Source: Sedimentibacter sp. zth1
GTDB taxonomy: Bacteria > Bacillota > Clostridia > Tissierellales > Sedimentibacteraceae
Assembly: GCF_017352195.1 (NCBI RefSeq)
Contig: NZ_CP071445.1
Span: 1,302,001-1,366,000 of the forward strand
Length of the DNA stretch: 64,000 nt
Direction: 5' to 3'
The translations under genes and the position numbers were made by a program. The notes under the pieces are model-generated. The model made no database searches, was not told the origin of the DNA, and saw nothing but the letters and a program-made list of their open reading frames with translations. Shown here piece by piece: positions 22,428-45,936 of the stretch (the first letter of the stretch is position 1; each line of letters begins with the position of its first letter).

Positions 22428-22461
22428 AGAGGTAAGCTGAATAATTATTTAGCTTACCTCT
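22428..22461. terminator. bidirectional terminator between potD and the GGDEF/HD-GYP gene
   Basis: Stem AGAGGTAAGCT (22428-22438) / AGCTTACCTCT (22451-22461). On the minus strand it is followed by ATTTTTATTT, on the plus strand by a weaker TAATATTTT. Confidence 0.8.
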
Positions 22462-22468
22462 TAATATT

Positions 22469-24127
22469 TTACATTAATTTGTCTATAGCATAAATAAATT
22501 TATCTACTAAATCAGGATCAAACTGTGTACCCTTGCAACGCCTTAATTCCTCAAAAGCATCCTCGTAGTTTTTCTTGCGTTGATATGGTCTGTTTGCAGT
22601 CATTGCATCAAAACTATCTGATATTGACAACATCCTAGATAGTTCGTTTATGTTATTACCCTTTAATCCATATGGATATCCAGAGCCATCAAATCTCTCA
22701 TGATGCTGACGAACAATGTCTACAATATTGTTATCAATTTGATGCATCTGTCCAATAATATCTGCACTGTCAATTGGATGCTTTTTAATCTCATCCCATT
22801 CCTCTTTTGTAAGTTTCTTGTTCGAAATCAATATATCTTTAGAAATATTTATCTTGCCTATATCGTGTAAATACGCACCATAGACTAATTGCTTTTTTTC
22901 CTCATTACATAGCTTTAAATAATCAGCAAAAATCTGGCAGTAAATAACTACACGCTCTGTATGGCTATATGTATAATGGTCTCTTGAGTTTACAATAGTA
23001 ATTAGTGCTTTTACTGATGTCATACCCTTATCGTTATCAATATCCAAGTCAGAAAACTGCTCAAATACAGATGTATACAACTCAACTCTATTTTTACGAA
23101 AAAACTTTGCCCTGTACAATGCAATATCAGCACGTTCAATAAAGTTTCTAACATTATCATCACTTTTTTTTCTTTCTGAAACCCCAATAGAAATCGTTAA
23201 ATTATGATTAGGCATAAGCTCCTGACCTTTAAATTTATGGTCATATATTTTTTCCCTTATATTGTTGGCAAATTCAATCGCCTTTTTCTGATTTATACCA
23301 GGGTAAATTACTGTAAATTCTTCTCCGCCATATCTGCAAATTATATCTTTTTGTTCTGAACTACTTTTAATCACATAGGCTATTTCCTTTAATATATCGT
23401 CACCAACCTGATGTCCATATAAATCGTTGTAAGACTTAAAATAATCTATATCAATCATTATAACTGAAATAGCTTTTTCACATTCAGGGTCATTTTTAAA
23501 CATATTTTCTAAAGTTTCATAAAAATAACAATGGTTATATAAACCTGTTAAAAAATCTATATTGGCACGGTTTTTCAATTCAGATATATGTTCACCTTCA
23601 ATTTTTACATAGAAACCAACCACCCAAGCTACTAAATAGAACATTGCAGTCAATGCTATGTCTGACTGAAAATAAGGATTTACACCATCACTTTTATACA
23701 TAATCAAATCCATCGCTAATATAGTAATTGAGGATATTGTCGCAACATATGAGCCTAAATTAAACCCATACTCCATAGTATATACAACTATCATAAACAA
23801 GAACATATACTTATAATAACTTTCATATCCTCCACTATATAACAGTGCACATAAACATATTAAATAGTAGACTACTATTTCAACGTATTTGCAAAATTTA
23901 TTATTAACAAACTTAATATTGACTACAAACCACAAAATAACAACTGCAATTATAACAACCAAAAATACTACTGGCATTAGAATATTAAAATTTGACCAAA
24001 TGTGAAATGCATTTTCAGTAAAATAATATTGAAAAACTGGTGTTGTACAAAAAAGCAATGCCAAAATTTTCAAGGTGAAAAACATACTGTTAAATTTTTT
24101 TTGCTTTTCATTGTCCCATTCGTGCAT
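22469..24127 (-). CDS. membrane GGDEF and HD-GYP protein (cyclic-di-GMP turnover)
   Basis: 552 residues. Five to six membrane helices (about 15-180) precede a GGDEF domain with an intact active site RYGGEEF (near 266), so it can in principle make c-di-GMP. An HD-GYP phosphodiesterase follows, with YSHTERV (near 386), LHDIGK (near 422) and HHERFDGSGYP (near 474), so it can also degrade it. The start is ATG 24125-24127 behind GAGGTG; a GTG 42 bases upstream lies inside a hairpin and is less likely. It is the last gene behind agrD on the same strand, with that hairpin between them. Confidence 0.92.
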   Translation of the reverse strand: MHEWDNEKQKKFNSMFFTLKILALLFCTTPVFQYYFTENAFHIWSNFNILMPVVFLVVIIAVVILWFVVNIKFVNNKFCKYVEIVVYYLICLCALLYSGGYESYYKYMFLFMIVVYTMEYGFNLGSYVATISSITILAMDLIMYKSDGVNPYFQSDIALTAMFYLVAWVVGFYVKIEGEHISELKNRANIDFLTGLYNHCYFYETLENMFKNDPECEKAISVIMIDIDYFKSYNDLYGHQVGDDILKEIAYVIKSSSEQKDIICRYGGEEFTVIYPGINQKKAIEFANNIREKIYDHKFKGQELMPNHNLTISIGVSERKKSDDNVRNFIERADIALYRAKFFRKNRVELYTSVFEQFSDLDIDNDKGMTSVKALITIVNSRDHYTYSHTERVVIYCQIFADYLKLCNEEKKQLVYGAYLHDIGKINISKDILISNKKLTKEEWDEIKKHPIDSADIIGQMHQIDNNIVDIVRQHHERFDGSGYPYGLKGNNINELSRMLSISDSFDAMTANRPYQRKKNYEDAFEELRRCKGTQFDPDLVDKFIYAIDKLM

Positions 24128-24154
24128 TTTATAATTCACCTCATTAAATAATTT

Positions 24155-24187
24155 GGTAGGAGAGAACACAATTTCTCACCTACCCTA
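24155..24187 (-). terminator. hairpin between agrD and the GGDEF/HD-GYP gene
   Basis: GGTAGG-A-GAGAA and TTCTC-A-CCTACC form an 11-bp stem with one A/A mismatch. The sequence after it on the minus strand is AT-rich but not a pure T tract. It may terminate partly or protect the upstream mRNA, leaving some read-through into the next gene. Confidence 0.5.
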
Positions 24188-24200
24188 CTGAAAAATAACT

Positions 24201-24326
24201 TTACTTATCCTGCAATGATTTTGGCTCTACAGGTTGGTAAGCCCACCAAAAGCAAGCAGAAGTCGCAACTAGAGTTGCTACTAAAGTAGCTAGAATCGAA
24301 ATGATAGATAATAATTTTTTTTTCAT
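24201..24326 (-). CDS. agrD: AgrD-type cyclic thiolactone autoinducer peptide precursor
   Basis: A 41-residue peptide directly after agrB. The N-terminus MKKKLLSIISILATLVAT is an amphipathic membrane-seeking helix. The core is TSACFWWAYQP and the acidic tail is VEPKSLQDK. It closely follows the known Clostridium AgrD pattern (ATSACLWF-x-QP-x-EPKSL in C. perfringens, from memory). The ring would be the five residues CFWWA, Cys25 to Ala29, with AgrB cutting before Tyr30. The start ATG 24324-24326 has AGGAGGAG 7 bases upstream. Confidence 0.92.
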   Translation of the reverse strand: MKKKLLSIISILATLVATLVATSACFWWAYQPVEPKSLQDK

Positions 24327-24353
24327 ATTAAGCTCCTCCTATATTATTTTCTA

Positions 24354-24995
24354 TTAGGTTTGATATACTCCTAATAATTTATCAATAGCTTTAATAAAAC
24401 TATGACCTATTTTAGTAAGCATTATTACCTGCCACAAAACAGAAAGTGAAAGGCTTATAGCATAACTTATATAATACCCTCCGTAAATCATCTGCAATAA
24501 TGCTAGAAATATGGTGATAACTGTAAAAAGAAGCAATACTATAAGTGCTTTCTTTCTTAGTCTTTTAATTTTTTCTGTATTTTTTATAGGTTTATTAGGG
24601 TTATCCACCGGAGCAAATTTATAAACTAATATGTAAGAACCTATATAAATAGCCATCATCCCCATATATATGTATATCATGCTAACATAAGGTATTATAA
24701 TAAACCTTGATATATATGAAAATAAATCTATAAAAACAACACTGATTATTACACAACTGTTAAGGCTAGCTGAATGAGCCCCTCCTATAACTCTTCTTAA
24801 TAATCCTACAGAAATAAAAATAATTAATGCTTCAATAAAAAAACCAAATACTAGCGCTATTGTACATGATAGTATAAAAATAGTCATAAATTGAATTATT
24901 GCAACAAGACCATATGATATAACACTAATTTTTTCTTCATCTGCTTCTATTGATTTTCCAATGCTTCGAGCTATTTTTTTACTCAACCACTCCAT
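24354..24995 (-). CDS. agrB: AgrB, processing protease for the autoinducer peptide
   Basis: 213 residues with about six membrane helices. The cysteine protease residues are visible in LLRRVIGGAHSASLNSC: His74 and Cys81. It removes the AgrD tail and helps close the thiolactone ring. The start ATG overlaps the end of the upstream gene by 17 bases. agrD follows after a 27-base gap. Confidence 0.93.
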   Translation of the reverse strand: MEWLSKKIARSIGKSIEADEEKISVISYGLVAIIQFMTIFILSCTIALVFGFFIEALIIFISVGLLRRVIGGAHSASLNSCVIISVVFIDLFSYISRFIIIPYVSMIYIYMGMMAIYIGSYILVYKFAPVDNPNKPIKNTEKIKRLRKKALIVLLLFTVITIFLALLQMIYGGYYISYAISLSLSVLWQVIMLTKIGHSFIKAIDKLLGVYQT

Positions 24996-25488
24996 TTAAC
25001 ATTCCTTTTTTTCTTTTAATATTTAATTTATAAAAAACAAACATAACCAATACTAATACTACATTTGTTGGAGCTCCAAGTAACGATTTATAGATTCTAC
25101 TAGATATATTACCATTACTATTTAAAATTAACATTATAATATCATGTCCAATAATAAAATTTAATACTTTTAAATTTATTAGTTCAAGAATTAATATAGA
25201 CATTGTAGTAGTTAACGCACTTAGAACGGTATAAAATGTCGAAGTTTTCAATAAAACTACTGACAGTAATATGTCTGAAATTATTATGAGAACTGTATGA
25301 TATCCAAAGCTTATAACCGATATTTGACGAATTCCAAACATAATAACAGCTAATATTATTGCTGCTAACAGCATAGTTTTAACGTCAGCCTTCCTCCTAT
25401 TAAATGCATATAGTGATAAAACATATCCTAAAGACTGTAAGAAATAACCTAAAACGCCATCAGCTAAAAAAAGAACAACATAATTCAA
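24979..25488 (-). CDS. AgrC-like membrane sensor stub without kinase domain
   Basis: 169 residues, five or six membrane helices, ending just after the last one with a short basic tail (NIKRKKGMLNG). Topology and motif style (a GYHTVLIIISDILLSVVLLK helix, then LTTTMSILILELINLKVL) recall the N-terminal sensor part of AgrC/HPK10 kinases, but no dimerisation His box or ATPase follows. The next bases are agrB, overlapping by 17 bases. TTG start behind GGGGG. It could be a receptor, an AgrB partner or an immunity-like protein. Confidence 0.65.
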   Translation of the reverse strand: MNYVVLFLADGVLGYFLQSLGYVLSLYAFNRRKADVKTMLLAAIILAVIMFGIRQISVISFGYHTVLIIISDILLSVVLLKTSTFYTVLSALTTTMSILILELINLKVLNFIIGHDIIMLILNSNGNISSRIYKSLLGAPTNVVLVLVMFVFYKLNIKRKKGMLNGVVE

Positions 25489-25500
25489 AATTTTACCCCC

Positions 25501-26124
25501 TCAGTTTAGTTTTGCTTTGTTTAAATTTAATGTTTTTATTGTATAAAAAACTATTATTCCTAAAAAAGAGTGTATAAGAATATCTCCGATACTCATAATA
25601 CTAAAACCCAAATCAATATAGTCACCAAAAAAATTAAGAGATGTTGAAGAACTCATCAATATATGTAAGTTATCAACACCTTGCGACAAAATACCATTTT
25701 TATAAAAGCCCGTTATATTTGATAAAGTTGGATAAACAGGCATTTTGCCATTATTACATGCTATAACAGCTCTATTTAATATACTCCCGATAATTACAAA
25801 GACTGAACCACATATAGCCGGACTGTAAAGCTTTCTATATATAATAGGTACAAGTAATGAAATATTAAACGCATATTGTATATATACTGCGTACCTCACA
25901 AAACTATAATTTCCAAACAAAGCATTAATTTGAAAAAATAAATGCACCAATTCTATCATAATAAGAGGGTATAAATCGTACGCCTTTATAAGATTTTTAC
26001 AATCATATTTTTTTATACGTGCAATTAATAATGGTATAACTAATATAAACAAAAGCATACATGCACTCCATTCGACAATTTTATACATAATTTTCAAAAA
26101 AACATCAATTATATAATAGCACAC
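25501..26124 (-). CDS. DUF5317-like membrane protein
   Basis: 207 residues with five or six membrane helices. The pattern NRAVIACNNGKMPV in the middle, the later FGDYIDLG and the terminal MSIGDILIHSFLGII fit DUF5317. Function unknown. It is the first gene of the agr cluster, 12 bases before the AgrC-like stub. The start is uncertain: GTG at 26122-26124 has no clear ribosome site, and an ATG 36 bases later is possible. Confidence 0.65.
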   Translation of the reverse strand: MCYYIIDVFLKIMYKIVEWSACMLLFILVIPLLIARIKKYDCKNLIKAYDLYPLIMIELVHLFFQINALFGNYSFVRYAVYIQYAFNISLLVPIIYRKLYSPAICGSVFVIIGSILNRAVIACNNGKMPVYPTLSNITGFYKNGILSQGVDNLHILMSSSTSLNFFGDYIDLGFSIMSIGDILIHSFLGIIVFYTIKTLNLNKAKLN

Positions 26125-29099: not shown

Positions 29100-29176
29100 G
29101 CGCCATTAGCTCAATTGGATAGAGTAGCGGACTTCGAATCCGAAGGTTGTGGGTTCAATTCCCTCATGGCGTACCA
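29100..29176 (+). tRNA. tRNA-Arg, anticodon TCG
   Basis: Acceptor arms GCGCCAT / ATGGCGT (first pair G-U), D arm GCTC...GAGT, anticodon loop CTTCGAA, T arm with GGTTCAATTCC, discriminator A and an encoded CCA. The anticodon TCG reads CGA-type arginine codons. The outer pair of the anticodon stem is a G-A mismatch. Confidence 0.95.
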
Positions 29177-45674: not shown

Positions 45675-45936
45675 ATATAGTGCAATGATAGGAAATAGTA
45701 AATATATATTTATTTTTAGAGAGTTCTTGCTTGGTGAAAAAGAATAATATATATATATATTGAACACATCTTAGAGCTAGTTACTGAAATAATAGTAGGA
45801 TAACTCGGTTTCACCCGTTATAGTGAAAAAGTATTTTATACTTTATGAGATTAGTGTTGTGAGATACTAATAAAAAGAGGTGGAACCACGGATATAACCC
45901 GTCCTCTTAGTGAAAACTAAGAGAATGGGTTTTTTA
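45675..45936 (+). ncRNA. T-box riboswitch, histidine-specific, upstream of hisS
   Basis: The T-box sequence AGAGGTGGAACCACG (45876-45890) pairs into an antiterminator with CCTCT. The rival terminator is a stem from 45897 to 45931 (AACCCGTCCTCTTAGT / ACTAAGAGAATGGGTT) followed by T6. In the stem I specifier loop, GAA-CAC-A at 45762-45768 gives codon CAC for histidine, agreeing with the gene downstream. Uncharged tRNA-His should bind and allow read-through. Confidence 0.9.

Follow-up and report, generated by a model that had tools for sequence, protein, structure and literature searches.

In classical agr/fsr (AgrBDCA) loci of Staphylococcus, Enterococcus and clostridia, quorum sensing involves the AgrB protease, the precursor AgrD, whose core contains a Cys residue, and an AgrC-type sensor domain. 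Orphan loci, in which agrBD has no recognized receptor, have been described in Clostridium botulinum (agr-1 and agr-2; PMC9229411, PMC3673130) and Clostridium difficile (agr1; PMC3754575). Many clostridia-type bacteria likewise encode agrBD without the usual readers of the peptide, AgrC and AgrA. Here, we describe an operon that offers a candidate receptor pair. It consists of five minus-strand genes at positions 22469-26124 of a 64,000-nucleotide stretch of the genome of Sedimentibacter sp. zth1 (NZ_CP071445.1, positions 1,302,001 to 1,366,000; hereafter, the window). Our favored reading, in which we have moderate confidence, is that the operon serves agr-type quorum sensing through a split receptor, composed of an AgrC sensor and an output protein with six transmembrane (TM) helices, which would set the level of cyclic di-GMP (c-di-GMP). 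The locus shares with classical systems the AgrB protease, the AgrD precursor with its Cys-containing core and the AgrC-type sensor domain.

In the direction of transcription, the locus encodes a DUF5317 membrane protein (25501-26124; PF17248, E 7.8e-20), a 169-residue 5-TM protein that we call the stub (24979-25488), the peptide-processing membrane protease AgrB (24354-24995; PF04647, E 2.9e-36), the cyclic peptide precursor AgrD (24201-24326; TIGR04223, E 2.8e-14), and an enzyme in which a 6-TM domain precedes GGDEF and HD-GYP domains (22469-24127; Pfam GGDEF and HD_5). Both open reading frame (ORF) coordinates and Pfam/NCBIfam domain calls bear out a preliminary description of this DNA, which had listed five same-strand genes at this position. 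The spacings that it gave (12, -17, 27 and 73 bases, the negative value being the overlap of agrB with the stub gene by 17 bases) are reproduced exactly when the enzyme starts at the ATG at 24127. This ATG is a better start than the GTG at 24169, from which a longer ORF could be read, because the GTG belongs to the loop that closes a stable hairpin. As had also been claimed, no AgrC receptor histidine kinase and no AgrA LytTR regulator are encoded at the locus; a sensor half without HATPase is present, and the LytTR genes of this genome are at other positions.

The agrB gene is the only one in the genome (3.13 Mb, one contig), and inspection of its GGAHSASLNSC motif shows that the His/Cys pair is retained with its spacing. 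In AgrD, the predicted peptide core SACFWWAY (24237-24260, minus strand) contains Cys25 as the putative thiolactone-forming residue and is followed by the tail QPVEPKSLQDK, of the YQPVEP type. The core is predicted from a SAC....YQPEEPxxL pattern common to ~33 AgrD proteins of this cassette, and the peptide ring would presumably end with the core. In Clostridium tetanomorphum (L120, 5167-7593), the stub, agrD and GGDEF/HD-GYP genes are present, and agrB is missing between the stub gene and agrD.

The preliminary description had called the stub AgrC-like, which a single sequence is insufficient to judge, since the stub has no family match in Pfam or NCBIfam. Profile comparison shows that the description was correct. 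Using hhalign, the stub aligns over its full length with the N-termini of AgrC kinases encoded beside agrB (98.8%, E 7.6e-17), and a weaker but positive match was obtained with an AgrC set lying mostly outside the selection made with the stub profile (72%, E 3e-5). This profile, built from 45 stubs, matches mostly the N-termini of GHKL kinases adjoining agrB when whole genomes are searched. In 249 relatives, 14 of its 17 matches outside the cassette are within ~2 kb of an agrB, while in the Sedimentibacter genome its only match is the stub itself. Moreover, four loci (L131, L136, L140 and L147) contain a naturally split AgrC beside agrB, in which a stub-type ORF is followed by a separate GHKL ORF. 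Judged by this profile homology and by the naturally split AgrCs, the stub is a free-standing sensor half of AgrC that lacks the kinase. It is modeled by AlphaFold2 as five TM helices (predicted local distance difference test, pLDDT, 94), and a conserved R-x-L-P-I-x-F-G-V-H-T motif between TM2 and TM3 is predicted from the charge distribution to lie on the outer side. Variations in stub number exist, with two stub genes per locus in L161, L218, L226 and L228; in the first of these, the stubs are in tandem and agrD is present, but no agrB was recognized. A second free-standing stub in G101, a genome from another family of the same order (L047, 6796-7335), has no agr gene nearby; close to it are a TetR-type regulator and an ABC export cluster of three genes.

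As for the enzyme, its 6-TM sensor/transducer domain (23597-24127, minus strand) is modeled by AlphaFold2 as six helices (pLDDT 89), the last of which runs into the GGDEF domain. This latter domain (23090-23566, minus strand; PF00990, 2.1e-43) has an intact RYGGEEF motif, with the Arg of the inhibitory site replaced (EQKD), and the HD-GYP phosphodiesterase domain (22508-23008, minus strand; PF13487, 1.5e-35) has all its motifs intact, including HDIGK and HHERFDGSGYP. The enzyme therefore keeps both GGDEF and HD-GYP motifs, in agreement with the preliminary description. When it was compared with 89 agr-linked enzymes, the HD-GYP ligand residues were found to be invariant in 89-90 of the 90 proteins, whereas 19 of them have a missing or altered GG[DE]EF motif. 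Because the HD-GYP ligands are invariant while GGDEF degenerates, c-di-GMP breakdown is likely to be the core activity of these enzymes. In Clostridium beijerinckii HUN142 (L110, 5983-7715), the GGDEF/HD-GYP gene is in two ORFs and is broken between the domains, by a frameshift or a real split.

An important question is whether this arrangement recurs elsewhere. The same five genes in the same order occur in G101 with unrelated flanks, the encoded proteins being 30-47% identical, with the upper value for the enzyme over its full length. The linkage searches that followed used the 6-TM domain of the enzyme alone, to avoid any selection for agr linkage. At the level of the order, the 6-TM domain was found in 7 of 249 genomes and adjoins agrB in all seven; at the level of the class, 17 of 23 matches are accompanied by agrB or agrD and one more by a stub only. 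Contigs of named genomes yielded 37 loci, ~24 of which have the full five-gene order and others the four-gene core. Carriers include Clostridium sartagoforme, Clostridium cadaveris, C. beijerinckii, [Clostridium] fimetarium, Anaerobium, Parasporobacterium, Herbinix, Proteiniclasticum and Sedimentibacter. In a phylum-wide sample, 71 of 398 genomes have the 6-TM domain; agr-linked loci account for 18 of the best 20 matches and 42 of the next 60, and occur in ~54 of the 398 genomes, which places the candidate receptor pair in ~1/7 of the genomes sampled. When all searches are pooled, agrB or agrD is found beside 109 of 140 6-TM proteins of all types, and 101 of these 109 also have a stub; the linkage holds for 93 of the 102 proteins of GGDEF type and for 13 of the 32 of kinase type. 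Conservation of gene order in relatives, absence of which was to count against the preliminary description, was thus found in G101 and in another ~24 contigs of named genomes, and the core of four genes (stub, agrB, agrD and enzyme) is kept across the phylum. Since dozens of clostridia-like bacteria that are only distantly related have this arrangement, cell-density signaling and c-di-GMP are probably wired together directly in these species. This supports the earlier suggestion of a peptide quorum signal with its output or control through c-di-GMP, a functional link that stays inferred. DUF5317, which is the first gene in ~25 cassette loci, was rejected as an agr-specific gene because it is present in 122 of 150 relatives. 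Cargo of mobile elements was also rejected, the 6-TM sensor having no match in plasmids or phages.

The last gene of the operon is not always a GGDEF/HD-GYP enzyme. In 13 loci, its slot is filled by a histidine kinase that shares the 6-TM domain, in PAS-HisKA-HATPase, GAF-HisKA-HATPase-REC or PAS-histidine kinase-REC form, and a quick tree of the 6-TM domain, in which many forks are weak, has at least 13 changes of output. The orphan kinases CBO0336 and CBO0340 of C. botulinum may belong to a kinase form of the same system, with CBO0340 possibly carrying this 6-TM domain beside agr. Since kinases with the same 6-TM domain occupy the same slot in 13 loci, the output module is swappable, with the stub and the 6-TM domain as the constant pair. 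Six of the 6-TM kinases (L118, L121, L085, L170, L193 and L225, some near contig ends) keep an adjoining stub, while agrBD was not seen in the stretch examined. That they retain the stub without agrBD suggests that the stub and the 6-TM domain are tied to each other, and such kinases might possibly be eavesdropping receptors. In the kinase-type 6-TM proteins of L072, L074, L077, L078, L085, L118 and L121, the HATPase domain is followed by a conserved tail with (I/M)E(F/L)SDI at its end.

Together, these findings suggest the following mechanism. AgrB would cut and cyclize AgrD into a thiolactone peptide, which would be sensed at the outer face of the membrane by the stub, the half of AgrC that senses the autoinducing peptide, here separated from the kinase. 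The stub would then act on the 6-TM domain of the neighboring enzyme, the last helix of which would relay the signal to the GGDEF and HD-GYP domains, thereby setting the cellular c-di-GMP level. Given that HD-GYP, unlike GGDEF, is invariant, the peptide would at high density most likely promote c-di-GMP breakdown, a predicted output that is measurable by standard assays. Seen more broadly, this would be a general split-receptor form of agr, in which the AgrC sensor half is a subunit working with interchangeable 6-TM outputs (GGDEF/HD-GYP, PAS-histidine kinase or hybrid kinase), providing many Bacillota with a direct pathway from a cyclic peptide to c-di-GMP and supplying the missing receptors of orphan agrBD loci. 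We believe and doubt this wider proposal in equal measure.

Several observations weigh against the split-receptor reading. Fold searches of the PDB returned no match for either the 6-TM domain or the stub. The 6-TM domain is not exclusively an agr sensor, since 25 of 140 6-TM proteins are without agr or stub and the superfamily without agr consists mostly of kinases. The genome encodes two unlinked GHKL/LytTR pairs, at ~1.519 and ~3.033 Mb, which could read the peptide. Finally, a hairpin in the gap between agrD and the gene for the enzyme (24155-24184, minus strand; centroid -16.4 kcal/mol, z -2.9) may limit co-transcription. In the corresponding gap, 44 of 48 loci have a hairpin of at least eight pairs, compared with 23% of shuffles, an enrichment that rests on single-sequence folding against mononucleotide shuffles. 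RNAalifold found no consensus among the intercistronic hairpins, their alignment being out of register; their sequence varies among loci (L065-L123), and some copies have a U-run and resemble intrinsic terminators. The preliminary description had named a promoter and complete termination between agrD and the enzyme gene, with an agrCA pair elsewhere responding to the peptide, as a point against a functional link; the hairpin bears on this in part, being widespread and sometimes having a U-run, with none in the copy of the window. The hairpin suggests uneven expression or processing, not separate units, and transcription of the enzyme gene may be weaker than that of the genes before it. The stub and agrB genes usually overlap in cassette loci.

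This overlap, seen in many loci, would also suit a different division of labor, in which the 6-TM domain alone binds the peptide and the stub helps in AgrD processing or export beside AgrB. Conserved polar residues are found in loops predicted to be outside in the 6-TM protein, as they are in the stub, which is compatible with direct binding by the 6-TM domain and also speaks for the split receptor. However, the stub has its homologs among AgrC sensor domains and not among processing factors, and it accompanies 6-TM kinases where agrB and agrD are not seen. We therefore consider this alternative unlikely, though it is the one that survives best. Slightly less probable is that an unlinked AgrC/AgrA-like pair reads the peptide, the GGDEF/HD-GYP gene being merely co-expressed or a target. 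The genome does have, outside the locus, seven matches to PF14501 (GHKL-type ATPase) and three LytTR proteins, among which are the two pairs mentioned above. These pairs are not close to agr genes, and the linkage between agr and the enzyme holds across the phylum. Moreover, a profile search found that no GHKL protein of the genome carries a stub-type sensor, so that the AgrC-type sensor encoded beside agrB occurs in no other protein of this organism.

Control could also run in the reverse direction, with the enzyme sensing another cue and c-di-GMP regulating the production or export of the peptide. Co-transcription is compatible with this scenario, as is the existence of the 6-TM superfamily without agr. 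Nevertheless, histidine kinases in the slot of the enzyme are more in keeping with a receptor there than with c-di-GMP serving as an input to AgrB, and no c-di-GMP riboswitch was found in the window, which makes reverse control improbable. Elsewhere in the genome, one c-di-GMP-I riboswitch was found (L149, 1-7988, ~938-946 kb), preceding the gene for a 2592-residue secreted surface protein that is RHS/YD-like by eye and is a possible downstream target of c-di-GMP. Finally, that the genes are neutral neighbors or linked by chance is very improbable, nothing having been found in favor of it, since the order is conserved across families and classes with unrelated flanks and linkage of 93 of 102 GGDEF-type proteins is far above chance.

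Other features of the window include a symmetrical terminator-like hairpin (22428-22461) with a 15-pair stem, located between the operon and convergent transporter genes. A T-box leader (45676-45909) and a tRNA gene (29100-29173) were identified using Rfam.

If the split-receptor reading is true, it would to our knowledge be the first direct link known from a cyclic peptide to c-di-GMP, and the output half of the receptor would be swapped like a cartridge. The literature on agr joined to GGDEF/HD-GYP yielded only general reviews and a C. difficile agrA study, and an earlier mention in a subscription journal is possible. Quorum signals are coupled to GGDEF, EAL or HD-GYP domains in the RpfC/RpfG, RpfR and autoinducer-2 (AI-2)-sensing cyclase systems of Gram-negative bacteria, which differ from the present locus in that their signals are fatty acids or AI-2 rather than cyclic peptides and their receptors are unrelated. 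The 6-TM domain is reminiscent of PilS-type 6TM (PF25323) and MASE-type sensors, which also have six TM helices ahead of a signaling output. Its family weakly resembles 6TM_PilS and DUF4118, below cut-off; 19 of 58 6-TM relatives match PF25323 weakly (best 2.8e-6) and the window protein does not, and the agr-linked forms appear to be a set distinct from PilS-type and MASE-type sensors. A comparison with the stub and AgrC found no relationship, and homology of the 6-TM domain to either was rejected. The AgrA protein of C. difficile acts on c-di-GMP genes through their transcription (PMC3754575), an indirect link that differs from the linkage described here. The orphan clostridial loci resemble the present one in having agrBD without AgrCA. 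The core of C. botulinum AgrD1, ACYWVYQP (PMC3673130), resembles the YQPEEP-type AgrD proteins of this cassette, and the same species has the orphan 5TM-PAS-HisKA-HATPase kinases CBO0336 and CBO0340 (PMC11210211). In contrast to classical agr/fsr systems, the AgrC sensor is here a separate gene without a kinase, there is no AgrA at the locus, and the proposed output is a GGDEF/HD-GYP enzyme reached via an unrelated 6-TM domain.

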